The translations under genes and the position numbers were made by a program. Source: an uncultured Muribaculaceae bacterium (GTDB lineage: Bacteria; Bacteroidota; Bacteroidia; Bacteroidales; Muribaculaceae). From it: a stretch of 62,274 nt of DNA. Of this stretch, positions 23,994 to 40,300 are shown piece by piece. The stretch lies in assembly GCA_947625935.1 (NCBI GenBank), contig CANQQE010000014.1, forward strand, positions 1 through 62,274, in the 5' to 3' direction. Each line of letters begins with the position of its first letter. Within the stretch, counting starts at the first letter, position 1. Below the pieces are notes generated by a model. That model saw only the letters and a list, made by a program, of their open reading frames with translations, ran no database searches and was not told where the DNA came from.

Positions 23994-24020
23994 GCCCTTA
24001 AATAGATTTTAACTTATTAT

Positions 24021-24053
24021 AACCCGCTCACTTGAAAAAGTGGCGGGTTTTTT
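24021..24053 (+). terminator. Strong terminator after the two-module gene
   Basis: AACCCGCTCACTT (24021-24033) pairs with AAGTGGCGGGTT (24038-24049) with one bulged T, followed by a run of six T (24048-24053). Confidence 0.85.
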
Positions 24054-24128
24054 ATTATTTTTGAACCCGCATAACGACACTTTTTTAGCGATTTTGCTTA
24101 CCTACACTTACCTCAACAACCTGATATT

Positions 24129-24362: not shown

Positions 24363-25413
24363 AAATCATAACACCCCGGCGCACAGGATGCCCGCCGAAT
24401 GGGAGATGAATCAATCGGTAATGATCACTCTCCCCCATCCGCTTACCGACTGGGCATATATGCTCGACGAAGTGAGGGAATGCTACTTTGAGATAATAAA
24501 AGCGATTGCCGACGATTGCCGGCTGCTTATCGTCACCTCCGACCTGATAGCCGACTCACTTCTAATCGCAGGAATCCCCGGAGTAAACCGCGGCAACATC
24601 TCATATGCGGCGATACCGACCAACGACACATGGATTCGCGACTACGGGTTTATCACAACCGTGACACCCGACGGCCTATGCGAGCTCAACGATTTCAAGT
24701 TCAACGGCTGGGGGTTGAAATTCGCCGCCGACAAAGATAATCTGGTCACAAGTGTGCTTTGCGCTCAATCGGGTGCCGTCTGTGGCAACTACATCAACCG
24801 GCTCAGTTTTGTGCTTGAAGGCGGATCCATCGAAAGCGACGGATGCGGAACGCTTCTAACAACGACTCGCTGCCTCATGTCGCCAAACCGCAATGGAGGC
24901 ATGACGAGGCAGCAAATCGAAGACTACATTTCCGACAGTCTCGGTGCCAGAAAAATGCTGTGGCTCGACCATGGTGCGTTGATAGGTGACGACACCGACA
25001 GCCACATCGACACTTTAGCCCGGCTCGCTCCGGCCAACACCATCCTTTATGTGGCCTGCGATGACGCCGCCGATCCACATTTCGAGGAACTGGAGCTGAT
25101 GAAGCGGCAATTGGAAGGGTTCACAAACGCCGATGGAGAAAGTTTCAGACTATTGCCGTTGCCACTCCCGACACCTATATATGACGAAGACGGATTGCGT
25201 CTTCCCGCGACATATGCCAACTACCTCATCACCCCGCATTCAGTGATAATGCCGGTCTACGGACAACCCGACAACGACCGCCGGGCTATGGAGCAGATAG
25301 CACGGGCATTCCCGGAACATGACATCAAGACCGTTGATTGCCGCGCGCTCATCAAACAGCACGGCTCTCTACATTGCGCCACGATGCAGACATCTAACTC
25401 AGTCATAAAATGA
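24352..25413 (+). CDS. aguA: Agmatine deiminase
   Basis: A 353-residue agmatine deiminase family enzyme (guanidino-modifying superfamily), converting agmatine to N-carbamoylputrescine and ammonia. The entry MPAEWEMNQSVMITLPHP, TNDTWIRDYGFI with the substrate Asp, EGGSIESDG, WLDHGALIGDDTDSHIDTLA with catalytic His and Asp, and the nucleophile Cys342 in GSLHCATMQ are all present. Its stop overlaps the aguB start (ATGA at 25410-25413), so the two enzymes of the pathway are translated together. The same superfamily includes Porphyromonas peptidylarginine deiminase, but the pairing with aguB decides for the agmatine route. Confidence 0.93.
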   Translation: MTNKNHNTPAHRMPAEWEMNQSVMITLPHPLTDWAYMLDEVRECYFEIIKAIADDCRLLIVTSDLIADSLLIAGIPGVNRGNISYAAIPTNDTWIRDYGFITTVTPDGLCELNDFKFNGWGLKFAADKDNLVTSVLCAQSGAVCGNYINRLSFVLEGGSIESDGCGTLLTTTRCLMSPNRNGGMTRQQIEDYISDSLGARKMLWLDHGALIGDDTDSHIDTLARLAPANTILYVACDDAADPHFEELELMKRQLEGFTNADGESFRLLPLPLPTPIYDEDGLRLPATYANYLITPHSVIMPVYGQPDNDRRAMEQIARAFPEHDIKTVDCRALIKQHGSLHCATMQTSNSVIK

Positions 25414-26285
25414 AAGTAGGATTAATACAGCAGCACAACACCGCCGCCATCGACGGTAACCGGGCGAGACTTGCCGACAAGATAAGAAAACTCGCCGCTG
25501 ATGGAGCCGAGCTGATAGTGAATCAGGAGCTTCACGATTCTCTCTATTTTTGCCAGGAGGAATCGGTCGATTCATGCGACCTCGCAATCGGGTTACACTC
25601 CCCCGTCATCGACTTCTACGGGGCACTCGCCCGCGAGACGTCTACCGTGATCGTCACCTCAATTTTTGAGCGTCGCGCCCCCGGTCTATACCATAACACG
25701 GCAGTGGTATTTGAAAAAGACGGCTCAATAGCCGGCAAATACCGAAAGATGCACATTCCCGATGACCCCGCATACTATGAGAAATTCTACTTCACCCCCG
25801 GCGACATCGGATTTGAACCTATCGACACATCAGTTGGTAGTCTTGGTGTGATGGTCTGCTGGGATCAATGGTATCCGGAGGGAGCCAGACTGATGGCGCT
25901 TAAAGGCGCACAATTGCTAATCTACCCTACCGCTATAGGCACAGAAAGCACCGACACGCTCGACGAGCAAGCCCGGCAACTTGAAGCATGGGTCACCGTT
26001 CAACGCGGCCACGCCGTTGCCAACGGGTTGCCGGTGATAGCTGTCAACCGTGTTGGACATGAGTCAGACCCGTCACAGCGCACCGCCGGCATAACCTTCT
26101 GGGGCAATAGCTTCGTGGCCGGGCCACAAGGAGAGTTCTTGTTCCGGGCTCCTGCCGATTGTGAGACTGAGGCTATCGTAGACATCGACATGAACCGTTC
26201 CGAGCAGGTGCGACGATGGTGGCCGTTCCTCCGCGACCGACGCATAGACGCATATTCCGGCCTGACCGCCCGCTACCTTGACTGA
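25410..26285 (+). CDS. aguB: N-carbamoylputrescine amidase
   Basis: A 291-residue nitrilase-family amidohydrolase that cleaves N-carbamoylputrescine to putrescine, CO2 and ammonia. The catalytic triad is visible: Glu40 (IVNQELHDS), Lys113 (GKYRKMHIPDDP) and Cys150 (GVMVCWDQWYPEGAR). The block YYEKFYFTPGD is characteristic of the plant and bacterial carbamoylputrescine amidases. It completes the agmatine branch of polyamine synthesis with aguA; an arginine decarboxylase is not in this window. Followed by a hairpin at 26316-26349. Confidence 0.95.
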   Translation: MKVGLIQQHNTAAIDGNRARLADKIRKLAADGAELIVNQELHDSLYFCQEESVDSCDLAIGLHSPVIDFYGALARETSTVIVTSIFERRAPGLYHNTAVVFEKDGSIAGKYRKMHIPDDPAYYEKFYFTPGDIGFEPIDTSVGSLGVMVCWDQWYPEGARLMALKGAQLLIYPTAIGTESTDTLDEQARQLEAWVTVQRGHAVANGLPVIAVNRVGHESDPSQRTAGITFWGNSFVAGPQGEFLFRAPADCETEAIVDIDMNRSEQVRRWWPFLRDRRIDAYSGLTARYLD

Positions 26286-26315
26286 CGGGACAACCAAACA
26301 TCCGATACGAAACGA

Positions 26316-26349
26316 AGCGACCCTCCGGCACTATCGCCTGAGGGCCGCT
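26316..26349. terminator. Hairpin between aguB and OmpP1-like gene
   Basis: AGCGACCCTC (26316-26325) and GAGGGCCGCT (26340-26349) pair with one mismatch around a 14-nt loop, then TTATTAC. It lies between two convergent stop codons and could serve both. Confidence 0.65.
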
Positions 26350-26369
26350 TTATTACATCAACGGTTGAA

Positions 26370-27971
26370 TTAGAATTTGTAGCCGACTGACAGCACTATG
26401 TGGCTATCATTCTCAGTCAGGCTCGCCTGAGGGGTATCGGTGAAACCATCATACGGGGTGAAACCATGCCATGTGCTTTCACGATGGCGGTAGACGTAGG
26501 CAGCATCAGCATAGAAACCTTTATAGCGGTAGCCTAAGCCACAAGTCACATAGTAAGTGTCTTTTTTCAACGTATACGATGGATTAGTACCCGAAGTATA
26601 GATTTGTGTCTGATTGTCGGCGGCTTCATCCTTCACATCCGATGTCGTGTAGTTGAATCCCGCGCGCACACTGAACGAAGGGGTCACCCTGTACTCCGCT
26701 CCGAGGCGTATCGTGTTTGAAGCCTGGAAATAGTTCTTGATGTCGTCGGTAACATACTCATAGGTATTGCCGTCATCATCCTGGACCTTCATGTCGCTGT
26801 AGGCGGTGCGCTCATAATCGACGCTTATTATGCCGCGGCCACCAATCACGCCTGCGGCTCCTATCATGAGCCGCCATGGCGACTTCATCTGCCAGTTATA
26901 ATCGGCAACCTCGGTCTGCGAGGGTCGATTGGGCTGCTGGTCAGAATAAATGCCTGAGCTGTAGCCGTAATCTACGCGAGCGTCATAAACAGTGGTCATA
27001 TCGTAATAGGTCGGTGTATGCACAGCGATACCGAGACGGAACTCGTTAATAGGCTTGAAAATCAATCCGGCCTTGAAGTTGAAGCCGGTACCTGTGGTAT
27101 GTTGCCAGTTTTCGATTGAGAAGGCTGCGTCACCTGTCACGGTCCCGGTCGCCGAAGCGTTGGATATGAGCGCATCGTTGAGCTGCTCGTCATAATATGT
27201 GTCTGACCTGAAATCAAGATCGGTCACGCCGAAACCTATGCCCCAGTAGACAGTGTTCATTATGTTTCCGCCGAAGTTTATGGCATATTCGTCAACATAG
27301 CCTTTTTGACGAGTTCTGAACACAGCGTCGCCGCTTGTTCCGTTCTGCCACAGACCGTTATATTCATTGGAGCCGCGATGGGTGGGATTGATCATATAGC
27401 CGTTGTAGGCAAGTATACTTAGCCAATCCGCATCCGGGTTTCTATATGGGTTATAGTTTGAGGAATAATCGTCAAGCAAATCCTCGGGATAAGCCCAACT
27501 CTGTCCGCTCGTATAGTTCGCTATGTAGTTTGACATCGATGTCGATAACTGCGGCACGCCGCCGTTAAACACGCGGTCAAACGATGCCGAACGCTGGTAG
27601 GCTGCACCCCATGTGAAATAGGGCATAACGTCATTTCCGAGAGCAACCGCCCCGACATAACCAAAATTGTTGCAGGCGACCTTTGTTTGGTCAGAGCTTC
27701 GTTTATACCCCTGCGAACTGGTTTCGGCCGACTGGATGTCAATATCGAGCGTGACCCCGATTTCGCTGCTTCGGTACACTCCTATACCGGCCGGGTTCTG
27801 AGTCAGTGTCGACAAGTCACCGCCAAGAGCCGTGAACGCGCCGCCCATCGACATGAACCTGGCGGTACCGCGCAGTTCTGTGGGCGACAGATTGTAAGCG
27901 TCAATCGCGCTCTGCGCCACCATGGCTACAGGCACAAGACCCATAAGCCCAACGAGTAGATGCTTTTTCAT
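26370..27971 (-). CDS. OmpP1/FadL-type outer-membrane protein
   Basis: A 533-residue predicted beta-barrel: signal peptide MKKHLLVGLMGLVPVAMVAQ, then ELRGTARFMSMGGAFTALGG and LSTLTQNPAGIGVY, the N-terminal hallmark of the OmpP1/FadL/TodX transport proteins in which the NPAG stretch folds near the barrel entrance. The rest alternates beta strands and turns (for example RMLGAAGVIGGRG-like and SFSVRAGFNYTTSDV), ending in HIVLSVGYKF with a terminal Phe typical of outer-membrane barrels. The family takes up hydrophobic compounds; ligand unknown here. Single-gene unit between two hairpins. Confidence 0.85.
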   Translation of the reverse strand: MKKHLLVGLMGLVPVAMVAQSAIDAYNLSPTELRGTARFMSMGGAFTALGGDLSTLTQNPAGIGVYRSSEIGVTLDIDIQSAETSSQGYKRSSDQTKVACNNFGYVGAVALGNDVMPYFTWGAAYQRSASFDRVFNGGVPQLSTSMSNYIANYTSGQSWAYPEDLLDDYSSNYNPYRNPDADWLSILAYNGYMINPTHRGSNEYNGLWQNGTSGDAVFRTRQKGYVDEYAINFGGNIMNTVYWGIGFGVTDLDFRSDTYYDEQLNDALISNASATGTVTGDAAFSIENWQHTTGTGFNFKAGLIFKPINEFRLGIAVHTPTYYDMTTVYDARVDYGYSSGIYSDQQPNRPSQTEVADYNWQMKSPWRLMIGAAGVIGGRGIISVDYERTAYSDMKVQDDDGNTYEYVTDDIKNYFQASNTIRLGAEYRVTPSFSVRAGFNYTTSDVKDEAADNQTQIYTSGTNPSYTLKKDTYYVTCGLGYRYKGFYADAAYVYRHRESTWHGFTPYDGFTDTPQASLTENDSHIVLSVGYKF

Positions 27972-28019
27972 ATTCTAAATTTTGCTTATTTATTTTTATC
28001 ATTTAATCGGTTAGCGGCA

Positions 28020-28044
28020 AAGGCCGGTCGGAAACGACCGCCTT
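28020..28044. terminator. Hairpin with GAAA tetraloop
   Basis: CGGTCG (28025-28030), GAAA loop, CGACCG (28035-28040), extended by AAGG/CCTT across a single bulge. It lies 28 nt past the stop of the leftward low-complexity gene. Confidence 0.65.
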
Positions 28045-28072
28045 CCACCGCTAAACCGGATTACATCATTTT

Positions 28073-29425
28073 TCAGTGTCGGCCGCGGCTTCCACCGCCA
28101 CCTCTCGAACCGCCCCCTGAGCGTCCTCCTCCGAAACCGCCGGGACGACTACCCGACGACGGGCGGGAATAAGACGGAGTTGACGGACGGCTTTGCGACG
28201 GGCGAGAATAAGAGTTCTGGTTGCGGTTAGTGCTGCCGGCATTATTGATAGTCGTCGATGGACGCCTAACGTCGCTCACCTTGTTGTTTTTATTAATATT
28301 TGTCGACGGAACAACACTTGAACCAGGGCGTTGACCCCCGCCGCCGTTGTTAATCGTAGTGGCAGGTCGAGAAACGTTACCCGCCGCCGGACGGTAAATC
28401 GAGCCCTTATTCAAGTTACTGCTTCCGGGTCTGACAGTCGGTGTTGTAGAGCCTGGACGTTGTGTCCCCGTAGCACCGGGCCTCAGACCTGCGCCCGGAC
28501 GTTGACCCGAAGCAGGACGGTTTCCTACGCCGCTTGCACCCGGACGATAATTGCCGCCGGGTCGGTAATTTCCGTTCGGACGGTTACCCGGACGTAAACC
28601 GCTGGGACGGCCACCGGGACGATAGGCCGGGCGATTGTAGCCGTAATGTGGTCTGTGGGAGCCGGCCGGAGAGGGACGCCAGTAATAAGGACGGCTATAT
28701 CCGTAATAATAGTAGGGATAAGGTCGCCATGCAGGATACCACGCCGGGCCCCAGCCCCAATTCCAACCTACATTCCACCCCCAGTTTGAACTCCAGGATA
28801 GCGACCACGAAGGCCCGTACCATGAATCCCAGTACCACGGCGAACGCCATGTAGAGTAACCCCACCACGGATTCCAATAGTCATTGTTGTTGACATATAT
28901 GTTCACCGTAGCCGGCTGCGACGAAGATGAGTTATAGTAATAATCCACCAAATCATCGTCGCCTGAATCAGTCACGATATTCGGGTTGTGAAATTTCTCA
29001 ATTCTGCGAGTATAAGTGAAATCTTCAGTTTCATCGGGTGTGGCCGGAGCTGCGTTGTCGGTTGTATAACGCCGGTTATACTCATCGACATCACGCGTGT
29101 TGCCGCTATTGACTGTATAGGTATCAGACCCGGCCAAGTCAGCGACCTCATAATGATATGGTTGTGTCGTTGAATTGCCGAAAGTCCATTTTTCCGATGT
29201 CACCGGTGCCGTCGTTGTCGTGGTACGGGTAGTGGTTGTTGTCGTTGTGGTCCGTGTCGTTTTACTTTTTGACGCGGATTTTTTCGACTCCTTGGCTTTG
29301 CGCTCTTTCTGCTCCTGCTTGGAATCATAATAAATATCGTCGTCATAATAGCTCTGCGCGGCAACGATGCCTACCGACCCCGCGCACAGACCCAACGTCA
29401 ACAATGCGTGTTTAAAGTTCATCAT
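28073..29425 (-). CDS. Exported low-complexity Thr/Tyr/Trp/Arg-Pro-Gly-rich protein
   Basis: A 450-residue secreted protein: signal peptide ending VGIVAAQ, a charged Lys/Glu segment (about 36-52), a poly-Thr block with TTRTTT units (about 56-75), a middle dominated by Trp, Tyr and Ser-Trp repeats (about 190-255), and a long C-terminal half built on Arg-Pro-Gly and Arg-Pro-Ser units (about 255-440), ending in a Gly/Arg/Ser tail. No enzyme motif is seen. Such proteins are probably disordered surface or matrix components. A promoter -7 box TATATTTG lies 99 nt upstream on the minus strand. Confidence 0.7.
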   Translation of the reverse strand: MMNFKHALLTLGLCAGSVGIVAAQSYYDDDIYYDSKQEQKERKAKESKKSASKSKTTRTTTTTTTTRTTTTTAPVTSEKWTFGNSTTQPYHYEVADLAGSDTYTVNSGNTRDVDEYNRRYTTDNAAPATPDETEDFTYTRRIEKFHNPNIVTDSGDDDLVDYYYNSSSSQPATVNIYVNNNDYWNPWWGYSTWRSPWYWDSWYGPSWSLSWSSNWGWNVGWNWGWGPAWYPAWRPYPYYYYGYSRPYYWRPSPAGSHRPHYGYNRPAYRPGGRPSGLRPGNRPNGNYRPGGNYRPGASGVGNRPASGQRPGAGLRPGATGTQRPGSTTPTVRPGSSNLNKGSIYRPAAGNVSRPATTINNGGGGQRPGSSVVPSTNINKNNKVSDVRRPSTTINNAGSTNRNQNSYSRPSQSRPSTPSYSRPSSGSRPGGFGGGRSGGGSRGGGGSRGRH

Positions 29426-29523
29426 CAGAGCAATCCTTTCTTCTTTTTATTCGTTTTGGTTAGTTTTATAGATTAGACATCCGCAGCTCCATAAAGTTTA
29501 AGCCGTCAGGGTCTACTCAGTCA

Positions 29524-29531
29524 CAAATATA
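29524..29531 (-). promoter_or_regulatory. -7 box of the low-complexity gene
   Basis: Minus strand TATATTTG matches TAnnTTTG, about 99 nt before the ATG at 29425. No -33 element at consensus distance. The rest of the 29426-29730 interval holds two hairpins and no gene. Confidence 0.5.
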
Positions 29532-29623
29532 ACAAATTTCTGAATTATAGCCTAATTATCGCGCCACGAGGGAGAAATTTCGCTCCATTTTCACGATTGG
29601 TGCACCACTGGGCATCACAACAG

Positions 29624-29667
29624 GCGGGGAACTCCATCGTATTGCTGTTCTTGATGGAATCCCCCGC
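29624..29667. other. Imperfect long hairpin
   Basis: GCGGGG with CTCCATC (29624-29638) pairs with GATGGA and CCCCGC (29653-29667) across a 14-nt loop with two internal mismatches. It could be a terminator or part of a leader; followed on the plus strand by TTTATTCTTT. Confidence 0.45.
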
Positions 29668-29699
29668 TGATTTATTCTTTAATACTCCTATTTTTACCT

Positions 29700-29725
29700 G
29701 ATTTCGGCGGCAAACCGCCGAAATC
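29700..29725 (-). terminator. Perfect 11-bp hairpin after HdeD-like gene
   Basis: GATTTCGGCGG (29700-29710) and CCGCCGAAATC (29715-29725) enclose a 4-nt loop directly after the HdeD-like stop. There is no T-tract, so 3'-end protection is also possible. Confidence 0.6.
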
Positions 29726-29730
29726 TCAGA

Positions 29731-30294
29731 TTAACCTTGACGGCCTCCCTCGATGGGGCGCATATCATACGATGCCATGGCGATAGAGAAGCCCCAGTAG
29801 ATGAATGCGAGAGCAGTCAGGAAGCTGACCATATACATATCCTGAATCCAGCCGGCCTCAAAGAAGAAGAAACCGATGAGCACCAACAGGATACCATTCA
29901 CGAGATACAGCCACCAGTAGCGGCGCGCGCGCTGGCTCACGGCACCCACCATAGCTTCAAAGCCCCAGAACAGGAAGATAAATGCTAAGAAATAGGGGAA
30001 CACAACCTCCGAGAGGATGATTGATCTCACAAGCATGAAGCCGATGAACATATCAATCACACCGCCGGCAAGCCACCAGCCCCATCCGCGCGGATGATTC
30101 GGACCGGCCGACACACAGAGCTGAACAATACCGCCGAGAATCAGCAACCAACCGAAGATTTGTGATGCGATGGCGTAACCTGCTTGCGGCCAAAACCAAT
30201 AAGCAAACCCTCCGACGACCATCAAAAGACCAACGATGAGGACCATCCACCAATATTTGGTCTGTCCCCAATAATTAACTTGTAAGGCTTTCAT
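29731..30294 (-). CDS. HdeD/DUF308-type membrane protein
   Basis: A 187-residue inner-membrane protein with six hydrophobic helices, arranged as the HdeD/DUF308 repeat: WWMVLIVGLLMVVGGFAYWF, then IFGWLLILGGIVQLC, WWLAGGVIDMFIGFMLV, FPYFLAFIFLFWGFEAM, YLVNGILLVLIGFFFF and TALAFIYWGFSIAMA. HdeD was first linked to acid resistance in enteric bacteria, but the mechanism is unclear and its role here is unknown. Stands alone between two hairpins and the promoter region of the 30.5-kb operon. Confidence 0.85.
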   Translation of the reverse strand: MKALQVNYWGQTKYWWMVLIVGLLMVVGGFAYWFWPQAGYAIASQIFGWLLILGGIVQLCVSAGPNHPRGWGWWLAGGVIDMFIGFMLVRSIILSEVVFPYFLAFIFLFWGFEAMVGAVSQRARRYWWLYLVNGILLVLIGFFFFEAGWIQDMYMVSFLTALAFIYWGFSIAMASYDMRPIEGGRQG

Positions 30295-30439
30295 AATAAT
30301 AGTAATTAAATGAGTTAAACTATTTTTGTTTTCTCTTATAACAACCGCTTAACAAATTTTGTTGAAAAAATTATTCTATTTTTTCGCCCCACCAACACAT
30401 ATATCTCCCCAAAATATGCTGTAAAACATCTTCCGAGAT

Positions 30440-30470
30440 TTTGTCCCTGTAACTCCGTGCGTTATCTTTG
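30440..30470 (+). promoter_or_regulatory. Consensus promoter of the DTVSY/Rhs operon
   Basis: TTTG at 30440-30443, 19 nt, then TATCTTTG at 30463-30470: an exact match to the Bacteroidota vegetative promoter. The start site would fall near 30477, so translation must begin at the ATG at 30517 and not at the earlier in-frame ATG at 30457, which lies inside the promoter. Confidence 0.8.
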
Positions 30471-30516
30471 CGGAAAGTGCCACAGTCATCCCCAAATACC
30501 CCAGCCCATAAACCCC

Positions 30517-31761
30517 ATGCACAAACTCATTTACATAACGTTATTCCTAATAGGATGCACTTGTTCACTACAGGTATTTCCTACCCACAGAACAGGAACT
30601 ATCGAATGCTGTGACAAACTCACTAATCACGCATTGACCATACCGGATAACAACACGGTCAAATCCCCCACCAATCAAAAATATGATTATGTCTTCGATT
30701 CCCTTTACCACAACATCTATAATCAAAACACCACAAAAACTAACTACAACCGACCATCAAGACCTGATTACAGATACGAAAGATTCAAACAGTTATGGCA
30801 AGCGTTGAACATATCTGACGATGACACCGTCTACATATCTCGGATGTGGTTTAACGACAACGGACATAATTCTCGATTTGTGATTATGCGTTCCAAAAGC
30901 CATTCATTCATGAGTAACGGCATTGTCAAGCATGTCGAGCTGTCTCCACTGGCGACATCACTGCTGATGGAGGCCTGGAATCCCGACTCGTTGAGAGAAT
31001 CCGGCAAGCGATTCGAGCAAAAAGCAGCAGGCTTCGTAGGCGGTGCTCGGTCATACACCCATGCCACACGGATTATAATTAGCAATGGGACAATCGACAT
31101 CGATACCGTCAGCTACGGCAGCGGGAAATTAGACAGGCCGTACGTCAAGCTCTACAAAAAATATCTCGCAGAAAAAACCTACGACCCGTATCTCAGAATA
31201 TACCACGAACTATTTAACATATATTGGGAAGCCGACACATCGTCCCATATACCTGCGAAGCGTATGGCAGCGATTGACCGAACTGATTTCAAGCAAGTAT
31301 GGCAACAGCTTGATATACAGCCAACCGACACTGTCTATGCGTCAATATTCAACGGCACCGACGCAGATAATCGAAATTTCAGGATAGCCTTGTTCCAAAG
31401 CCGCAAAATGACATTCTGGGCCTATAACCCGGTCCCCGACAGCTATGCTAACGCCGACCGAGACGACAATCTTTTAGTTTTGGAAGCCCCCACACGGATG
31501 CCGGGCGGCATGGATGGCCCGCAGCCATATAAACGCTACGGAGAGGCATGGGAAAAAGGATACTACGACCGCTACACAGCGACTCCACCATCCGAACGGC
31601 AACGGCTCGGAATGGAGTGGCCTCAGTTCGGAAAAGGCGACAACCGCTGCCGGGTAACAAACGCAAGGGTGATAATAAACGGCGACAAGCACCGGATCGA
31701 CACGATGAGCTACGCCGCCGATCTGAGCGTCAGCCCGGAGATGTTCAAATATGCCCGATAG
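30517..31761 (+). CDS. Exported protein with two DTVSY modules (novel family)
   Basis: A 414-residue protein from the ATG at 30517, chosen because the promoter covers the upstream in-frame ATG. The N-terminus MHKLIYITLFLIGCTCS is a signal peptide with a possible lipobox (LIGC). Two copies of one module follow: copy A spans FKQLWQALNISDDDTVYIS to IIISNGTIDIDTVSYG (motif at about 31099-31119) and includes AWNPDSLRESG; copy B spans FKQVWQQLDIQPTDTVYAS to RVIINGDKHRIDTMSYA (about 31696-31716). The same module is found once each in the next two genes. I do not recognise the family. It heads an operon that ends in an Rhs remnant, so a link to polymorphic surface proteins is inferred. Confidence 0.75.
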   Translation: MHKLIYITLFLIGCTCSLQVFPTHRTGTIECCDKLTNHALTIPDNNTVKSPTNQKYDYVFDSLYHNIYNQNTTKTNYNRPSRPDYRYERFKQLWQALNISDDDTVYISRMWFNDNGHNSRFVIMRSKSHSFMSNGIVKHVELSPLATSLLMEAWNPDSLRESGKRFEQKAAGFVGGARSYTHATRIIISNGTIDIDTVSYGSGKLDRPYVKLYKKYLAEKTYDPYLRIYHELFNIYWEADTSSHIPAKRMAAIDRTDFKQVWQQLDIQPTDTVYASIFNGTDADNRNFRIALFQSRKMTFWAYNPVPDSYANADRDDNLLVLEAPTRMPGGMDGPQPYKRYGEAWEKGYYDRYTATPPSERQRLGMEWPQFGKGDNRCRVTNARVIINGDKHRIDTMSYAADLSVSPEMFKYAR

Positions 31762-31905
31762 TCTCCGAAAATTAAATTGGGGAACGATACAGCATAACAA
31801 ATTCTACGTTTATAAATTAAATCATTATTTTCCTTTATTTTCGCTATTTCAAGTCTTATTTTAGCCGGGTCTTTCACAACCGCCAATGAGATATCAGACA
31901 GATAT

Positions 31906-32523
31906 ATGTCTGAATCGAAAAAAGACTGCGATAAAAAAGTATTGAACAAAGATGCTCAGGGCAATGAAACGAAACAAAGGCAGAAAATTAATCAATTATA
32001 TGACCGATTATATTGTGAATACTGGAGCGTTAAAATTCCAAAGAATAAATTCGATAACACCCAAAATGGAATTAAGCCCAACCGAGATTGGAAGCACTAC
32101 TACCCCGCATGGAACGAACTTAATCCCAAACTCGGAGACACCATCTATATTTATTCTTATCACACTGCAGCCGGTGAGGATTTTGATTCATTTGCCATTT
32201 TTAAAAATAAAAACAAGGTCATGATTGCATACGCTCCACAAGCATATGATGAAAACCATGTTAATCAGAATACCTCCACGACATTGATAAACCTCTCTAT
32301 GCCCCAGCAAGACCAACTTGTCGAAAAATGGGACTTAGACCATTTTAAAAAAATCGGAGAAAAATACAAAGCCGACGCACCGCGTATACTTGGTGGATAT
32401 AAAATCACTATAAGGGCCGCTAGGATAATTATTGACGGCTCTAAATCAACCATCGACACCGTAAGCTACGGATATTTACACAAATCGCCTTGGCCATATC
32501 TTCAGATTATATACCTGAATTGA
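31906..32523 (+). CDS. DTVSY-module protein with probable lost or ATT start
   Basis: The ATG at 31906 gives 205 residues without a signal peptide, containing one module: HYYPAWNELNPKLGDTIYIY to RIIIDGSKSTIDTVSYG (motif 32452-32472), with KWDLDHFKKIG in the place of WNPDSLR. In frame upstream, from an ATT at 31816 that directly follows a stop, the sequence encodes IKSLFSFIFAISSLILAGS, a textbook signal peptide, running into the annotated start. No ATG, GTG or TTG exists in that stretch. Either translation begins at the rare ATT codon or the original ATG was mutated and export was lost. AT-rich compared with core genes. Confidence 0.65.
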   Translation: MSESKKDCDKKVLNKDAQGNETKQRQKINQLYDRLYCEYWSVKIPKNKFDNTQNGIKPNRDWKHYYPAWNELNPKLGDTIYIYSYHTAAGEDFDSFAIFKNKNKVMIAYAPQAYDENHVNQNTSTTLINLSMPQQDQLVEKWDLDHFKKIGEKYKADAPRILGGYKITIRAARIIIDGSKSTIDTVSYGYLHKSPWPYLQIIYLN

Positions 32524-32581
32524 TGCCCATGTTCATAAAACATCTGCATCAAAAAGCGGTTGAATCAGTTTTTAAAATCAA

Positions 32582-33385
32582 ATGAACAGATTTATTAAAA
32601 TATTAGCAGCATTATTTTTATGCCCAGTTTTTGCAGATTCCCAATTGACAACAGAGAATTTAGCCTCTGGATATGATATTAAAAATAATCTGTATGACTC
32701 GATATTTCTTAAATATTGGGTTATTGAGCAATGCGATGACGGCACCACACAAAAGGAATTTATTTATCAAAAGTGGCAATGTTTCCGCTCGCTATGGGAA
32801 TCTTTGCCAATCTCAGTCAATGATACTACATTATTGTCAACATATTCATTCTATTCGGATGGTGATGTTTACGAGTGTGCGACTTTAAAAAATTCCAAAG
32901 TAGCTCTACTAGCCGGATTATTATATGAACCATCCTCTAACGGATGTCTAAAACCGAAAGCTGAGATTATCAAAATCACGAGCGAATCCACTCATAATCT
33001 TATTGACAAATGGAATCCTGATTCTCTACGCTCCATAGCTCGATGGTTCAGTGACTACAGGCCAGCCCCTGAAGCCATAAAATGCAGGATAAAGAGCGCG
33101 CATATAATTTTTGATGGTCTGAACCCTCCAACTGTCGACACCGTGAGCTACAAAACGTGGAAATTAGTCTCACTGTATCTAACACCGAGTATAGTCAAAC
33201 AAGATAAAGATATGCGTGATGGGTATCTTAAACTCATCAATGGAAAAACGTCAACAAACGAGCGCAATAATCTAAATTACAACAATGACTCAACTTGGGT
33301 CAAATCTAAAGAGATGTCTAAATTCCGAAAACAGTTAAGAAAACAAATCAAGAAATCCATAATCAATGCGAAACAAAAGAATTAA
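32582..33385 (+). CDS. Exported single DTVSY-module protein
   Basis: A 267-residue secreted protein: signal peptide MNRFIKILAALFLCPVFADS, then YDSIFLKYWVIEQ, a motif shared in looser form with its two upstream paralogues, and one module from FRSLWESLPISVNDTTLLST to HIIFDGLNPPTVDTVSYK (motif 33134-33151) including KWNPDSLRSIARWF. The tail after residue 210 is basic (KFRKQLRKQIKKSIINAKQK). It overlaps the Rhs stub by 20 nt (33366-33385), so it was made together with that protein. Function unrecognised. AT-rich, unlike the flanking rpoD gene, which suggests acquisition. Confidence 0.75.
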   Translation: MNRFIKILAALFLCPVFADSQLTTENLASGYDIKNNLYDSIFLKYWVIEQCDDGTTQKEFIYQKWQCFRSLWESLPISVNDTTLLSTYSFYSDGDVYECATLKNSKVALLAGLLYEPSSNGCLKPKAEIIKITSESTHNLIDKWNPDSLRSIARWFSDYRPAPEAIKCRIKSAHIIFDGLNPPTVDTVSYKTWKLVSLYLTPSIVKQDKDMRDGYLKLINGKTSTNERNNLNYNNDSTWVKSKEMSKFRKQLRKQIKKSIINAKQKN

Positions 33386-33749
33386 ACATTTACTAATACC
33401 CAAATTCATATTAGAAACAGTTTTTGTATTCTTGGCTGCTCTATCTGTCGTTGCCAATGACAACATAAGCAGTTATGCTCCTAGAGATTATTCTATCATT
33501 CCTCCGTCTCCCGAAGTTTCATCGCTGATTAACTTCTACGACATACCAGTGGACTATTTCCACGGCCTACCCGACATAACGCTACCCATTTACGAGCTGA
33601 CTCAAGGCTCACTGAAAGTCCCGGTGTCGATACGCTACCACGGTGCCCAGAAGCTTCCTTATCCCAATCTCGGCCCCGGAACTGCGGCGACCGTTCAAGA
33701 TTGTAGAACCGTGACTTTGCAGCTCGACAATGATTTTGACGCCGCATAG
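33366..33749 (+). pseudogene. N-terminal stub of an Rhs/YD-repeat surface protein
   Basis: A 127-residue open frame. After a signal peptide (about residues 12-30) comes PPSPEVSSLINFYDIPVDYF, then HGLPDITLPIYELTQGSLKV and PVSIRYHGAQ, which is the conserved opening of the very long Bacteroidota Rhs/YD-repeat proteins, where it normally continues into a VGLGWSLNAGG-like segment and hundreds of YD repeats. Here the similarity stops at about residue 93, and an unrelated 34-residue tail leads to a stop in an 11-bp tandem repeat. Full-length relatives exceed 1000 residues, so this is read as a deletion remnant, possibly fused to the former C-terminal end. Confidence 0.7.
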
Positions 33750-33770
33750 ACGCCGCATAGACGTCGCATA
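33738..33770. repeat. Three tandem 11-bp repeats
   Basis: GACGCCGCATA at 33738-33748 and 33749-33759, then GACGTCGCATA at 33760-33770. The unit length is not a multiple of three, so loss or gain of a copy changes the frame. The stop codon of the Rhs stub lies within it. Confidence 0.85.
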
Positions 33771-33826
33771 GTTTTAAAAATCATAAATTGTCGGTGCACA
33801 AGGCAACAGATTCCAAAATAAATCGT

Positions 33827-33834
33827 TAACTTTG
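33827..33834 (+). promoter_or_regulatory. -7 box of rpoD
   Basis: TAACTTTG matches TAnnTTTG 41 nt before the rpoD start at 33875. No good -33 element is visible at the standard distance. Confidence 0.55.
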
Positions 33835-33874
33835 CACGTTGCTATTACAATAGCCCAAAACTTCAATTCAGAAG

Positions 33875-34735
33875 ATGAGACAATTAAAAATAACAAAATC
33901 AATTACCAACCGCGAAAGCGCGTCTCTCGACAAATATCTTCAGGAAATAGGCCGCGAAGACCTCATAACTGTTGAGGAAGAGGTAGAACTCGCCCAGCGA
34001 ATAAAGCAAGGAGACCAGGCCGCCCTCGAAAAGCTCACCCGCGCCAACCTGCGTTTTGTCGTGTCGGTCGCCAAGCAATATCAGAATCAGGGTCTTTCGC
34101 TCCCTGACCTGATTAACGAAGGCAACCTCGGACTGATCAAAGCCGCCCAAAAGTTTGACGAAACCCGCGGTTTCAAATTCATTTCCTACGCCGTGTGGTG
34201 GATTCGCCAGTCAATCCTTCAGGCATTGGCCGAGCAGTCGCGAATAGTGCGCCTTCCGCTCAACCAGGTGGGTTCTCTCAACAAAATCAGCAAAGCGCTT
34301 TCCAAGTTCGAGCAGGAAAACGAACGTCGCCCCTCGGCCGAGGAGCTTGCCGACGCCCTTGACGTGCCCGTCGAGAAAATCGCTGACACAATGAAGGTTT
34401 CTGGCCGGCACATATCGGTCGACGCTCCGTTTGTCGAAGGCGAGGACAACAGTCTTCTCGACGTTTTGACCAACGACGATTCTCCGATGGCCGACGCCAC
34501 GCTCACACAAGAATCGCTTTCTAAAGAAGTGGACCGAGCCCTCCGCCAACTGCATGAACGCGAACGCGAGATTCTGAAAATGTTCTTCGGCATTGGATGT
34601 CAGGAGATGACTTTGGAAGAAATCGGTGCGAAATTTGACCTCACACGCGAACGCGTGCGCCAAATCAAAGAAAAAGCTATACGCCGACTCAAAGGCCAAA
34701 AGAGCCGCCTGCTCAAAACATACCTCGGCCAATAA
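33875..34735 (+). CDS. rpoD: Primary sigma factor, Bacteroidota RpoD
   Basis: A 286-residue sigma-70, short because it lacks the long region 1.1 and non-conserved region of enteric RpoD, as in the Bacteroides primary sigma factor. Region 1.2 is [20 protein letters not shown]; region 2 includes [20 protein letters not shown] and [20 protein letters not shown] with the aromatic residues that melt the -7 box; region 3 follows ([10 protein letters not shown]); region 4 ends with [20 protein letters not shown], the -33 recognition helix. It directs the TTTG/TAnnTTTG promoters seen throughout this window. Own promoter upstream, strong terminator downstream. Confidence 0.96.
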
Positions 34736-34773
34736 TGCGACACCCCGCTAAGATATTAGCGCAAGTCATACAT

Positions 34774-34822
34774 AAAAGAGCGGTCGGACGATTCTCATTT
34801 TGAATCGCCCGACCGCTCTTTT
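34774..34822 (+). terminator. Strong terminator after rpoD
   Basis: AAAAGAGCGGTCGG, a mismatch and CGATTC (34774-34794) pair with GAATCG, a mismatch and CCGACCGCTCTTTT (34802-34822). Stem of about 20 bp with a 7-nt loop, A-run and T-run on the outside, so it can act in both directions. Confidence 0.85.
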
Positions 34823-34836
34823 GTTCGCATAATAAA

Positions 34837-34983
34837 TCAATTCGGCAGCGGCACCATAGCGGCGACATCAGTGTCACCCCAAAGATCGGCCACCGTAAGC
34901 CATACTATCAGCAACACGATAAGCACTATCGCGCCAATCGATATCCACAAGTTCGTTTTGTTGTTTCCTCCACGTTTATCCAT
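34837..34983 (-). CDS. 48-residue single-pass membrane protein
   Basis: A short reading frame with ATG at 34981-34983 and TGA at 34837-34839, encoding 48 residues: a basic N-terminus (MDKRGGNNKTN), one strongly hydrophobic helix (LWISIGAIVLIVLLIVWLTV, residues 12-31) and an acidic end (ADLWGDTDVAAMVPLPN). The positive-inside charge pattern and intact helix support a real small membrane protein. It is transcribed away from pta and ends 15 nt from the rpoD terminator, which can serve it too. No family recognised. Confidence 0.65.
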   Translation of the reverse strand: MDKRGGNNKTNLWISIGAIVLIVLLIVWLTVADLWGDTDVAAMVPLPN

Positions 34984-35138
34984 GACAGTCCTGTTAATTA
35001 GATTAGATATTTATTAAACAACGTTCACTAAAAATGGTTTATATTGAATGCCATCTTAACCCTATCTTACAAAAAAAATGCCTAATTTCGCGTTATTAAA
35101 ATCAATATTTACCCGTTAACCAATAATCTCGATTCTCT

Positions 35139-36155
35139 ATGGAACTTTTTGAGAAGCTAACCCGGCACGCCAAGAACTATAAGCAGCGCATAGTCCTTCC
35201 CGAGGGCACAGAACCACGCACATTGACCGCTGCCGACAGAATTATCGCTGATGGGATAGCCGACATAATACTGATTGGCGACCCGACCGACATCAATCAC
35301 ATGGCCAAAGAGTTGAATCTCGAGAACATCGGAAAAGCCACGATAGTCAACCCTGCCGACGAAGCCGTCATAGACCGCTACGCACCACTTTTCTTTGAAC
35401 TGCGCAAAAGCAAAGGCATTTCCATGGAGGAGGCCCGCCTGACCACAGCCAACCACCTCTACCTCGGATGCCTCATGGTCAAAGCCGGCGATGCCGACGG
35501 ACAGGTAGCCGGTGCCATGAACACAACAGGCAACGTGCTTCGCGCGGCGTTCCAAGTGATAAAGACACAGCCCGGCATAGACGTCGTGTCGGGAGCGTTC
35601 ATCATGCTCCTGCCCCAAGGGTCACCTTTCGGCACCGACGGCCTGCTTGTCTTCGCCGATTGCGCTGTGGTTCCTGACCCAACAGCAAAAGAGCTCGCAC
35701 AGATTGCGGTGTCGTCAGCACTCACCGCCCACGACATAGCCGGTGTCGAACCGCGCGTGGCGCTCTTGTCGTTCTCTACCAAGGGAAGCGCGCGTCACGA
35801 ACGCGTCGACAAGGTAATCGAAGCCACTGAAATCGCGCGCGAAATGGCTCCGGGGCTTATTATAGACGGCGAGCTTCAGGCCGATGCCGCCATCGTTCCC
35901 GGAGTAGCCCAGACTAAAGCTCCCAACGGCCCGTTGAGCGGACGCGCCAACGTCCTCGTGTTCCCCTCGCTTGAGGTCGGCAACATCGCCTATAAACTTG
36001 TGCAACGTCTCGGCGGAGTCGAAGCTGTGGGCCCAGTTCTGCAAGGCTTGGCAGCCCCTGTCAACGACCTCTCGCGCGGCTGTTTCCCCGAAGACATCTA
36101 CAAAACAATCATCATCACCTGCAACCAGGCAATAAGCCTCAAGGGCATAGCATAA
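35139..36155 (+). CDS. pta: Phosphate acetyltransferase
   Basis: A 338-residue catalytic-domain-only Pta that exchanges acetyl-CoA and acetyl phosphate. Conserved blocks: [20 protein letters not shown] near the N-terminus, [20 protein letters not shown] (about 126-145), [54 protein letters not shown] and [20 protein letters not shown]. It pairs with ackA 43 nt downstream to make acetate with ATP formation. A weak -7-like element TAATTTCG stands at 35084-35091. Confidence 0.96.
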
Positions 36156-36198
36156 GAATCTCTCCGATTAATAACTGATAATAAAATTCGATTCAACT

Positions 36199-37407
36199 AT
36201 GAAAATATTAGTGTTGAACTGCGGTAGCAGCTCAGTGAAATACAAGCTCATAGACACAACCGCCAACAAGACTCTCGCCGAGGGCGGCGTGGAACGCATA
36301 GGTCTCAACGACGGATTCCTCAAATACCGCACCCCCGACGGCTCAAAAGCCGTCACCCAACTTGGGCAGGTCGACCATCGCGGAGCAGTCGAAGCCATCC
36401 TCAAAAATATCACCGACCCTCAGATAGGCTGCATAAAAGACTACAAAGAAATTGACGCCGTAGGCCACCGCGTGGTTCACGGAGGCGAGAAATTCAACAA
36501 ATCGGTGCTCATCAACGACGCCGTCAAAGAACAAGTCAAAGAGTGCTATGGTCTCGCACCCCTCCACAATCCCGCCAATATGACCGGCATAGAAGCCGTC
36601 GAGGCGATTTTACCCGACGTTCCTCAGGTAGGGGTATTCGACACAGCCTTCCACCAGACAATGCCCGCAAAATCGTTCATGTATGCCCTGCCCTACAAAT
36701 ACTACACTGAGGACGGCATTCGCCGCTACGGCTTCCACGGAACAAGCCACCGCTACGTTTCGCAGCGCGTCTGCGAGTTCCTGGGTGTCGACATCAACCA
36801 ACAACGCATCATCACCTGCCACATCGGTAACGGCGGTTCAATCACTGCCGTCTACCATGGCAAGAGCATAGACACTTCGATGGGTCTCACCCCAACCGAA
36901 GGTCTGATGATGGGCACGCGCGTAGGCGACATCGACCCGGGCGCGTTGACCTATCTGATGAAACGCCACGGATTGAACGCCGATCAGCTTCAGACCATCA
37001 TCAATAAAGAGAGCGGTGTGCTCGGCGTATCGGAAATATCGTCGGATATGCGGGAAATCGAAGCCGCAGTAAAAGCAGGCGACCCGCGCGCAACGCTCGC
37101 CCTCGATATGTACGAGCAACGAATCCTAAAATACGTCGGAGCCTACGCTGCCGAGATGGGCGGTGTCGACATCATCGTATTCACCGGCGGTGTCGGCGAG
37201 AACCAGACCGGCGTGCGCGCTAATGTGTGCCGTCCCCTTGCCTTTATGGGCGTTGAAATCGACGGGGAGCTAAACGAACGCACCCGCGGGACAGAAACAG
37301 TCATATCCCTCCCCTCATCAAAGGTAACCGTCGCCGTTATCCCCACAGACGAGGAACTGATGATCGCCCGAGACACCGAGGAGATTGTCAACAGCTTGAA
37401 AAAATAA
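36199..37407 (+). CDS. ackA: Acetate kinase
   Basis: A 402-residue acetate kinase, ATP from acetyl phosphate and ADP. MKILVLNCGSSSVKYKLID binds phosphate; HRVVHGGEKF, LAPLHNPANMTGI, FDTAFHQTMP, RYGFHGTSHRYVS with the conserved His, CHIGNGGSITAV, TPTEGLMMGTRVGDIDPG and FTGGVGENQ are all in the expected order. Normal length. Second gene of the pta-ackA fermentation pair and probably cotranscribed with ddh 32 nt further on. Confidence 0.97.
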   Translation: MKILVLNCGSSSVKYKLIDTTANKTLAEGGVERIGLNDGFLKYRTPDGSKAVTQLGQVDHRGAVEAILKNITDPQIGCIKDYKEIDAVGHRVVHGGEKFNKSVLINDAVKEQVKECYGLAPLHNPANMTGIEAVEAILPDVPQVGVFDTAFHQTMPAKSFMYALPYKYYTEDGIRRYGFHGTSHRYVSQRVCEFLGVDINQQRIITCHIGNGGSITAVYHGKSIDTSMGLTPTEGLMMGTRVGDIDPGALTYLMKRHGLNADQLQTIINKESGVLGVSEISSDMREIEAAVKAGDPRATLALDMYEQRILKYVGAYAAEMGGVDIIVFTGGVGENQTGVRANVCRPLAFMGVEIDGELNERTRGTETVISLPSSKVTVAVIPTDEELMIARDTEEIVNSLKK

Positions 37408-37439
37408 AACTAAACTCATAACCAAAACTGATTTATAAA

Positions 37440-38336
37440 ATGAATAAAATCAAAGCAGCCATCGTAGGCTATGGAAACATCGGACACTTCGTGCTCGATG
37501 CCCTTCAGGAAGCTCCCGATTTTGAAATCGCAGGAGTTGTGCGCCGCAATGCCGACAACCGTCCGGCCGAACTCGCAGACTACCCTGTCGTAACCGACAT
37601 CAAGCAGCTCGGCAAAGTAGATGTAGCTATCCTTTGCACCCCTACCCGCGAGGTAGAGAAACACGCATCGGTGATGCTTGCCGACGGCATAAACACCGTC
37701 GACAGCTTCGACATACACACCGACATATGCGCCCTGCGCAACAGGCTCGATTCAATAGCCAAAGCCCATGGCACAGTGGCTGTCATAGCCGCCGGATGGG
37801 ATCCCGGAAGCGACTCTGTTGTCAGAACGCTGATGCAGGCAGCCGCACCCAGAGGCGTGACCTACACCAACTTCGGCCCCGGCATGAGCATGGGACACAC
37901 CGTCTGCGTGAAATCGAAACCCGGCGTCAAAAACGCCCTTTCGATGACCATACCCCTTGGCACAGGCATACACCGCCGCATGGTCTATGTCGAACTTGAA
38001 GACGGATACACCCTCGAATCTGTCGCCAAGGCAGTAAAGGAAGACCCATACTTCGCAAGCGATGAAACCCACGTCATCGAAGTCCCGTCGGTTGATGAAG
38101 TCAAGGATATGGGCCACGGAGTGCATATGACCCGCAAGGGTGTCTCAGGCAAAACGCAGAACCAACGTTTTGATTTCAACATGAGCATCAACAACCCCGC
38201 ACTCACCGCCCAGATTCTGGTCGGCGTGGCGCGCGCATCGATGAAACAACAACCCGGCGCCTACACCATGATTGAGATTCCTGTAATCGACTTCCTCCCC
38301 GGCGACCGCGACACCCTGATCCGACACCTTGTTTGA
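37440..38336 (+). CDS. ddh: meso-diaminopimelate dehydrogenase
   Basis: A 298-residue NADPH-dependent enzyme that makes meso-diaminopimelate in one step from tetrahydrodipicolinate, for peptidoglycan and lysine. The Rossmann start is IKAAIVGYGNIGHFVLDALQ; AILCTPTREVEKHA, TVDSFDIHTDI, AAGWDPGSDSVVRTLMQA and NFGPGMSMGHTVCVK are the Ddh signature blocks with substrate-binding Trp, Asp and His. It differs from the LL-DAP aminotransferase route. Lies between ackA and lgt in a rightward cluster. Confidence 0.94.
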   Translation: MNKIKAAIVGYGNIGHFVLDALQEAPDFEIAGVVRRNADNRPAELADYPVVTDIKQLGKVDVAILCTPTREVEKHASVMLADGINTVDSFDIHTDICALRNRLDSIAKAHGTVAVIAAGWDPGSDSVVRTLMQAAAPRGVTYTNFGPGMSMGHTVCVKSKPGVKNALSMTIPLGTGIHRRMVYVELEDGYTLESVAKAVKEDPYFASDETHVIEVPSVDEVKDMGHGVHMTRKGVSGKTQNQRFDFNMSINNPALTAQILVGVARASMKQQPGAYTMIEIPVIDFLPGDRDTLIRHLV

Positions 38337-38389
38337 CCCCGGGGATACCCCACCGAAAACATCAACAAACTGATTAACCCGTTACGCTC

Positions 38390-39250
38390 ATGCTTGACTA
38401 TATCGTATGGAACTGGAACCCCACGATAATTGATTGGCCGCTCACCGTGCGCTGGTACGGCCTGATGTTCGCCATCGGATTCACAATCGGCTATTGGATT
38501 GTGGCCAAAATGTTCAAGCATGAGGGGGCTCCCGAAAGCTGGCTTGGTACCCTGCTGCTCTGGGTAGCGGCAGGTACCATAATCGGCGCCCGGCTCGGTC
38601 ATGTGTTTTTCTATGCCTGGGACCATTACTCTCAGCATCCCGCCGAGATTCTCTACATCTGGGAAGGCGGACTCGCCAGTCATGGCGGAACGATAGGCAT
38701 TATCATAGCCGTCTTCCTTTTCTCAATCATAACCACCAAACGAAGCCCGCTATGGACTTTTGACCGATTGGTGATACCGATTGCCCTTGTCGGAGCCTTA
38801 ATCCGACTCGGCAACCTGTTCAATTCTGAAATCTTCGGCCATGCCACAACCCTGCCGTGGGGATTCATGTTCGTGCGTTCAACCGAGTGGCAGGCACTCT
38901 ATCCCGGTCAAGCGTGCCACCCCACTCAAATCTACGAGGCTCTTTGCTATCTTGCCCTTTTCGGACTGCTTATGTGGATGTACTGGGTCAAAAACGCCGA
39001 ACGTCGTCCCGGCTTGATTTTCGGTGTGTTCTTCATCATCCTGTTCACCTCGCGCTTCCTCATCGAGTTCATCAAAAACGACCAAGAGGCGTTCGAGGCC
39101 GACATGACACTCAACATGGGCCAATGGCTAAGCCTGCCATTCATAGTCACGGGCATATTGCTCGTCTTGCACGCTTTGCGTCGCCCGCCTGTAAAGCTCT
39201 ACTTCCCTGACCATTTTGCCCCTGAACCCGACAAAAAGTCCAAACGATAA
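38390..39250 (+). CDS. lgt: Prolipoprotein diacylglyceryl transferase
   Basis: A 286-residue inner-membrane enzyme with seven helices, transferring diacylglycerol from phosphatidylglycerol to the lipobox cysteine of prolipoproteins. Conserved signatures: VRWYGLMFAIGFTIGYW near the start, ARLGHVFFYAW, GGLASHGGTIGIIIA (about 96-110) with the essential His and Arg neighbourhood, and RLGNLFNSEIFGHATTLPWG (about 144-163). It acts on several lipoproteins predicted in this window. Follows ddh by 53 nt. Confidence 0.95.
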   Translation: MLDYIVWNWNPTIIDWPLTVRWYGLMFAIGFTIGYWIVAKMFKHEGAPESWLGTLLLWVAAGTIIGARLGHVFFYAWDHYSQHPAEILYIWEGGLASHGGTIGIIIAVFLFSIITTKRSPLWTFDRLVIPIALVGALIRLGNLFNSEIFGHATTLPWGFMFVRSTEWQALYPGQACHPTQIYEALCYLALFGLLMWMYWVKNAERRPGLIFGVFFIILFTSRFLIEFIKNDQEAFEADMTLNMGQWLSLPFIVTGILLVLHALRRPPVKLYFPDHFAPEPDKKSKR

Positions 39251-39268
39251 CAACCACAAACGCGAGTA

Positions 39269-39823
39269 ATGCTTAAATTCCTGAAATATCTGCTGCAACT
39301 GCTCATTTCCCCCGCCAATGGTTGGGACGACATTTCTCATGCCGGAACCGAACCCTCACGCCTTACGGCCGAAGGTTTTTATCCGCTGTTGGGCGCATCT
39401 GCAATCACGGCATTCATTCCGATGATTTATGACCATGAAATCAGTCTTGCCGCCGCTTTGCAGAACGCCATCATCATATTCGTGCAGTACTTTATTTCTT
39501 TATTCCTCGCCAACTACATTTTCGCCACCATTCTGCCCCGATACATAGACGGTGAACCGAACGAAAAACGCACATCTACGTTTATAATCTACAACCTCTC
39601 GCTCCTTGCGCTGATAACGATTATAGAGAACATTCTGCCGTTTGACCTCGCGATTGTGCAATTCCTCCCAATCGTTGTAGCTGTTGTGATGTGGAGAGGA
39701 TGCCGATACATGGCGGTGTTGTCCGACCGCACCGGACGCTTCATGATAGCGGCCATTGTCACAATCATAGCAATGCCGCTGCTGCTCGGATACCTGTTAC
39801 ACCTGCTCGCTCCGGCTGCTTAA
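39269..39823 (+). CDS. YIP1-like membrane protein
   Basis: A 184-residue protein with five hydrophobic helices (for example GASAITAFIPMIY, IIIFVQYFISLFLANYIFAT, IYNLSLLALITIIENIL, VQFLPIVVAVVMW and FMIAAIVTIIAMPLLLGYLL), similar to the YIP1/DUF1282 type of small bacterial membrane proteins. Function unknown. It lies between lgt (18-nt gap) and smpB (21-nt gap), so it is in their transcript. Confidence 0.7.
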   Translation: MLKFLKYLLQLLISPANGWDDISHAGTEPSRLTAEGFYPLLGASAITAFIPMIYDHEISLAAALQNAIIIFVQYFISLFLANYIFATILPRYIDGEPNEKRTSTFIIYNLSLLALITIIENILPFDLAIVQFLPIVVAVVMWRGCRYMAVLSDRTGRFMIAAIVTIIAMPLLLGYLLHLLAPAA

Positions 39824-39844
39824 AACGCAAAGTGACATATTATC

Positions 39845-40300
39845 ATGCAATTCAAAGAAATCAACATAAAGAACAAACGCGCCACCTACGACTACGCCAT
39901 CAGCGAGACATTCACCGCCGGCATAGTCCTCACCGGTACTGAGATAAAATCGATCAGAATGGGCAAGGCAAGCCTTGTCGACACGTTCTGCTATGTTGCC
40001 AACGGTGAGGTGTGGATCAAGAATATGTATATCGCCGAGTACTTCTATGGCACATACAACAACCATGCCGCACGGCGCGACCGCAAACTGTTGCTTAACC
40101 GCAAGGAAATACGCCGTCTTGAAAAAACTGGTAAAGAAGCCGGATTCACCATTGTCCCGATGAGACTGTTCATCAATGACCGCGGACTGGCCAAAATGGT
40201 CATCGGCATAGGCCGCGGCAAAAAGGAATACGACAAACGTCAGTCCATCAAAGAGCGTGAGGACCGCCGCTCGATGGCCAGAATGTTTGAGAAAAAATAA
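39845..40300 (+). CDS. smpB: SsrA-binding protein SmpB
   Basis: A 151-residue RNA-binding protein that brings tmRNA to stalled ribosomes for trans-translation. [20 protein letters not shown] opens the OB-fold; [19 protein letters not shown], the [20 protein letters not shown] block and [20 protein letters not shown] near the C-terminus are the family signatures. The tmRNA gene itself was not found here. Last gene of the pta-to-smpB rightward cluster. Confidence 0.97.

Follow-up and report, generated by a model that had tools for sequence, protein, structure and literature searches.

What are three paralogous genes for, when they stand in tandem before the wreck of an Rhs/YD gene in an uncultured Muribaculaceae bacterium? 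The locus lies in a stretch of 62,274 nucleotides (the window, here and below), which is contig 14 of a genome of 3.69 Mb in 150 contigs (completeness 99.99), and its genes hold four copies of a single module. We put at roughly three in four the probability that these genes form an orphan polyimmunity array against Peptidase_M91 toxins of other strains, one exported protein in it having two immunity domains.

A module family behind M91 toxin tips

An initial annotation, made from the letters of the DNA, had recognised no named family in the module. This was borne out by searches of Pfam, NCBIfam and the PDB, where no family matched the module proteins over threshold (the best match had an E value of 0.0044, and any given family was hit by a single member at most). 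Among open-licence articles, as far as titles and the openings of abstracts tell, no paper describes the module family. Relatives were sought with a profile built from just the window's own four modules (A1), with A4, which joins to A1 six relatives (the loci L018 and L019 are among its training loci), and with a further profile, A6. At an E value of 0.001, A1 gave no further module match in its own genome or in three further genomes from its genus (completeness 68% for one). Over the bacterial family, A1 matched 4 of 398 genomes, its own included, and A4 matched 13; over the order, A4 matched 7 of 393, again with its own, and over the phylum A6 matched 2 of 395, its own and one with an orphan-like lipoprotein. 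The comparisons below count 20 module loci, among which L066-L068, by eye parts of large unrelated proteins, were kept; L016/L020, matched by A1 at 5.4e-4, was rejected as a relative and stands outside this count, being by eye a sugar-active enzyme that was lost with a better profile.

It is the place of the relatives in other genomes that speaks for a role. At L018, four exported proteins of 166-171 amino acids each stand behind an open reading frame (ORF) with an Rhs tip, or the remnant of one, and a GHExxH domain. All four toxin ORFs of these four toxin-module pairs match Peptidase_M91 (PF14891, which we take to be one family with Tox-HopH1) in the genome search, and the three that were scanned as proteins match it with E values of 1.4e-15, 2.8e-16 and 7.5e-12. 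Alignment of the window modules with the relatives of L018 and L019 by hhalign gave a probability of 96.8%.

Seen from the side of the toxin, an alignment of M91 domains led to 76 loci with 763 ORFs, 690 of them other than toxins: 64 genes lie directly 3′ of an M91 toxin, the other 626 elsewhere, and 12 of the 76 loci have no 3′ ORF by the rule used. With the window-only profile the 64 adjacent genes outscore the 626 others (area under the curve 0.75, p 1e-11); 6 against 2 reach 12 bits, 7 against 2 reach 9 bits and 14 against 6 reach 5 bits, the maximum for reversed sequences, taken as a control, being 7.2 bits. Both of the other ORFs at 9 bits or more are found behind sibling M91 cassettes of L099. 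A4 picks out 20 of the 64 adjacent genes at E ≤ 0.001. Every one of these is from Bacteroidota (49 M91 loci with a 3′ gene belong to this phylum), and one, at L099, is a training sequence; the six other ORFs that match at this threshold are again relatives behind M91 tips, in the cassettes of L099 and L120.

The converse also holds. When the 228 window ORFs are scored with a profile built on 18 proteins that lie next to M91 toxins in named genomes, the three genes of the operon take the first three places (E 9.9e-10 for gene 2 and 8.7e-8 for the ORF of gene 1), and hhalign of the window modules with these 18 proteins gave 95.9%. Toxin and neighbour diverge together: over 21 chosen pairs, none of them from the window, their distances are correlated with a Mantel r of 0.74, equalled in 0 of 5000 permutations. 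The neighbour starts between −3 and +14 nucleotides (nt) from the end of the toxin in 17 of these pairs, and overlaps it more in the other four, which is probably due to the choice of an upstream start codon. Among the 398 genomes of the bacterial family, 13 have the module, 28 have M91 and 6 have both (Fisher p 8.6e-5); 14 control genomes gave no M91 match. A crude signal-peptide rule passes 45 of the 64 adjacent genes, 161 of the 626 others and 14 of the 18 relatives, and six of these 18 carry a lipobox by a simple pattern.

The initial annotation had further expected the module to keep company with Rhs/YD proteins. The association is real yet partial: a recognisable Rhs tip lies within 5 kb in 8 of the 20 module loci and in none of 20 control stretches (contig beginnings from 15 genomes, six of them shorter than 18 kb). 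It is, moreover, specific to the M91 tip, not to the Rhs/YD body, since an M91 domain is present in 7 of those 8 loci and in none of the control stretches. A place directly 3′ of a toxin tip is true of the Bacteroidota relatives, not of the window genes. An array such as that of the window could arise as at L061 7639-11055 (the same place as L120), where a single M91 cassette is followed by four tandem relatives, three of which, by eye, have a membrane segment at the C terminus.

Two features of the relatives may be recorded here. The orphan-like relatives of L019 and L053 share their small arrays with a DKNYY protein (genes at L053 6373-6885 and L019 6758-7279), which makes these arrays heterogeneous and immunity-like. 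L056 8545-9234, L019 7347-8099 and 8896-9621, L053 4119-4853 and L059 8693-9406 have in common a C-terminal tail rich in Trp (of the type IWQRIADWFRSVWEWLFG), which may be amphipathic and serve as a membrane anchor.

The locus in the window and its Rhs remnant

Pairwise BLAST and profile placement confirm that the three genes contain four copies of one module (Table 1). The copies have diverged, with 21-38% identity within local BLAST segments. Comparisons between m1a, m2 and m3 gave E values from 6e-13 to 2e-7, and m1a with m1b gave 1e-5; m1b is the outlier, at 1e-6 or 0.008 against m2, depending on direction, and at 0.006-0.05 against m3. Ten columns are invariant in the alignment of the four copies, including W-x2-L, D-T, a W and the terminal D-T-x-S-Y. 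The heptapeptide WNPDSLR is exact in m1a and m3, its counterparts being WDLDHFK in m2 and WEKGYYD in m1b. Genes 2 and 3 are AT-rich (GC content 37.1% and 36.4%), for 47.9% in gene 1 and 48.0% in the window.

Table 1. Features of the module operon, in window coordinates; modules were placed with the four-copy profile.
Feature	Position	Strand	Remarks
Promoter-like motif	30440..30470	+	TTTG-19-TATCTTTG; Bacteroides-type
Gene 1	30517..31761	+	414 aa (amino acids) from ATG; lipobox LIGC (by eye); two immunity-like modules
Module m1a	30676-31164		in gene 1
Module m1b	31180-31737		in gene 1
Gene 2	31816..32523	+	one module; first ATG 31906; 205 aa (31906-32523) from that ATG
Module m2	31981-32511		in gene 2
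Gene 3	32582..33385	+	267 aa; signal peptide, one module, basic C-terminal tail
Module m3	32672-33199		in gene 3
YD/Rhs stub	33366..33749	+	127 aa; internal-deletion remnant

The layout and one promoter-like motif suggest a single transcript for the three genes. The motif, which we take to be the Bacteroides promoter consensus, had been described as an exact promoter; it is present, and is weak as evidence because the window holds five such motifs where 1.07 are expected by chance. It nevertheless bears on the start of gene 1: GTG 30457 falls within it and was dropped as a start, so that the ATG is the likely one. That all three paralogues are exported, as first proposed, is upheld by eye for gene 1, a lipoprotein, and for gene 3, with its signal peptide; the start of gene 2 is problematic. 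Its signal-peptide-like stretch is in frame at 31816-31905, upstream of the first ATG, and after the preceding stop the only candidate is an ATT (31816). From its sequence, this start would be either non-canonical or damaged.

The overlap of 20 nt between the last gene and the Rhs/YD stub was confirmed, and the stub has a traceable origin. On contig 10 of this genome there is a YD gene whose 5′ part matches window positions 33474-33645 with 87% identity. The match then jumps by 4.36 kb: positions 33646-33715, which follow in the stub with no break, correspond at 81% identity to the end of the downstream gene in that operon; this second piece is in a frame other than that of the stub, and in that frame reads as the end of the downstream gene. 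Two contig-10 segments being thus joined without a gap, the stub is the internal-deletion remnant of a relative of the contig-10 operon. A clean empty-site comparison with the three other genomes of the genus had to be abandoned because they differ in the gene that lies upstream of the sigma factor gene: by eye it is DnaG-like in two, FtsH-like in one, and the stub in the window (window 33875-34735; L179, L180, L181).

The contig-10 locus (L009, positions 24000-40000 of that contig; 10-11481 within this piece) carries three Rhs tips. They are HExxH tips (VHETMHH), without an M91 match, and the one that was scanned had no match in Pfam. They are accompanied by a family of exported partners unlike the module, then by the YD gene, read as two ORFs, and at the end by a gene with a tail that by eye resembles those of the type IX secretion system. 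The four-copy profile finds no module copy there. The exported partners of these cassettes were considered as homologues of the module, with which they share a similar DSVYVS stretch, and were rejected (hhalign probabilities of 6.5% and 1.6%).

What weighs against an orphan array

A number of points weigh against reading the operon as an orphan array against M91 toxins. There is no toxin beside the window modules and no PF14891 match in the genome, and in the window the profiles used match neither an M91 domain nor an Rhs tip, so that it is linked to M91 by homology alone. Gene 3, taken by itself, does not match the profile of M91-adjacent proteins significantly (E 0.21), and gene 2 lacks a canonical start ahead of its signal peptide. 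The 18 proteins of that profile, and the 21 pairs, were chosen with A4, which contains the window modules; the reverse-profile test is for this reason not fully independent, the independent one being that with the window-only profile. With the latter, 50 of the 64 toxin-adjacent genes score below 5 bits, which points either to great diversity within the family or to different partners for some of the M91 toxins. Outside Bacteroidota (23 of the 76 M91 loci, with 15 adjacent genes) none of the 15 reaches an E value of 0.001 with A4, the best score with the window profile being 6.0 bits, and the pairing of toxin and module is accordingly shown for Bacteroidota only. Twelve of the 20 module loci have no recognisable Rhs tip: three of them resemble chance matches, two have Rhs remnants by eye (L055 and L060) and the others are orphan-like (there is no tip within 5 kb at L059). 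A further orphan-like relative, at L202, has no tip by eye in its 3.5-kb stretch. Finally, a paper of 2026, in the excerpts available, treats the Salmonella Tox-HopH1 as anti-eukaryotic (PMC12994826), which speaks against a general rule.

Three other explanations have to be set beside the orphan array. The window genes might be decaying leftovers without present function, the toxin, YD and immunity genes of a lost Rhs island eroding together. The deletion stub fits such a fate, as do the start of gene 2 and the failure to find the module in the other three genomes from the genus, one of which is 68% complete. Yet three long ORFs are still open, two of them with export signals and plausible starts, and the four copies still agree in ten columns, including D-T, W and D-T-x-S-Y, all of which makes erosion an unlikely account. 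We regard with similar scepticism the idea that the modules are immunity proteins against a toxin class other than M91, the family having switched partners. In its favour, the window copies have diverged, the module of gene 3 sharing 10-18% identity with the A6 members from outside the window; but where a module locus has an Rhs tip close by, this tip comes with M91 at seven loci out of eight. The relative at L058 (1-2829) also lends it some support: it stands two genes behind an Rhs tip with an HExxH-like domain, HEVTH, which the M91 profile does not match, and may be a case of partner switch or an orphan. As for the modules serving the Rhs/YD body itself as chaperones in secretion or folding, they do precede the YD stub in an operon-like run and Rhs tips are found near eight module loci, but this is highly improbable, for the relatives follow the toxin tip, one per cassette in L018, and diverge with the toxin, the contig-10 YD operon has no module, and several relatives have no recognisable Rhs tip within 5 kb. 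The initial annotation had left a choice between accessory, chaperone and protective partner: the last has support, the first two do not.

Proposed mechanism, known systems and meaning

The orphan array is thus our preferred reading, and it starts from what was observed: homology, a place behind M91 tips in other genomes, co-divergence, export signals, a genome without an M91 match, and a deletion. Each module would be a member of an unnamed exported immunity family, the cognate toxins of which would be the Peptidase_M91 (Tox-HopH1/NleD-like, HExxH) tips of Rhs/YD proteins of Bacteroidota. In an intact cassette, a single module gene would come no more than a few bases after the toxin tip, and its product would go to the periplasm, or to a membrane where it faces the periplasm, there to bind the incoming protease domain and block it. 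In the window, the toxins would have been lost and the YD gene cut to its deletion stub; the three immunity genes that remain encode four domains, a pair of which share a chain, and would guard the cell against the M91 toxins of its neighbours. Neutralisation by binding, a periplasmic site of action and a benefit to the present-day cell are what this picture predicts.

A close parallel comes from a type VI secretion system (T6SS). According to excerpts of Wood et al. (2019, PMC6899460), VgrG2bC-ter, an HExxH metallopeptidase toxin, is harmless in the cytoplasm of Escherichia coli and toxic in the periplasm; its immunity protein PA0261 binds it and requires its own signal peptide, the homologues of PA0261 being lipoproteins or membrane-anchored. 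The domain of VgrG2b is named M91 in the text seen of PMC8867033. As far as these sources go, this Tpe-Tpi pair shares with our system an HExxH toxin and an exported immunity protein (by signal peptide, lipobox or membrane helix), and differs from it in that the carrier is a T6SS VgrG, not an Rhs/YD protein; PA0261 is likened here by description, not by sequence, and no solved structure matches the module profiles. By analogy, an Rhs-M91 toxin and its module might act as VgrG2bC-ter and PA0261 do. In Salmonella, excerpts of PMC8867033 suggest a membrane protein of 110 amino acids as the immunity of a PAAR-RHS-M91 protein.

Among the polymorphic toxins catalogued by Zhang et al. (2012, PMC3482391), in the portions of text available, HopH1 and NleD are named as members of Tox-HopH1. 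The Rhs toxins of this family have module relatives as 3′ neighbours; the window has no such toxin. With three genes and four modules on the same strand, the window presents the tandem paralogues by which a homogeneous polyimmunity locus is recognised. Such loci and proteins, as the same excerpts describe them, likewise consist of tandem paralogues of one type, or of two immunity domains in a chain; the array of the window differs in being exported and in having three genes, for four or more in extended loci. For Imm65, an immunity family of Bacteroidetes whose partner is Tox-JAB-1, that text likewise gives a signal peptide and a lipobox; the window proteins have no Pfam match to any Imm family. 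Orphan immunity genes without a toxin also make up the acquired interbacterial defence (AID) and recombinase-associated (rAID) clusters of gut Bacteroidales (PMC12247911, in part), which differ in answering T6SS toxins and, for rAID, in having a tyrosine recombinase. The window array is flanked by genes that look like housekeeping ones, judging by eye from their N-termini, and inspection of the same N-termini recognised no tyrosine recombinase in the window, where no profile scan was made for one. The module would be a new immunity family within a known kind of system.

What would this change in our view of the toxin? M91/HopH1 domains are best known from effectors injected into the cells of animals and plants. 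The excerpts of PMC3482391 likewise know them from such effectors, and its table of polymorphic toxins, read from flattened text, has a dash in the immunity column for Tox-HopH1. The module family is a candidate for this entry, left blank in 2012. The exported partner that follows the toxin and diverges with it suggests that, in Bacteroidota, Rhs-borne M91 domains are weapons between bacteria, active in the cell envelope. The broader proposal, on which we remain evenly divided, is that the HopH1/M91-tipped Rhs proteins of Bacteroidota have in this family the exported immunity that had been missing, hence that NleD-like proteases are antibacterial and periplasmic there, and that orphan arrays, including a lipoprotein with two domains, would be a standing shield against several M91 variants. 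A family is now defined for proteins that Pfam and NCBIfam currently leave unmatched, and the module may serve as a marker for orphan immunity arrays.

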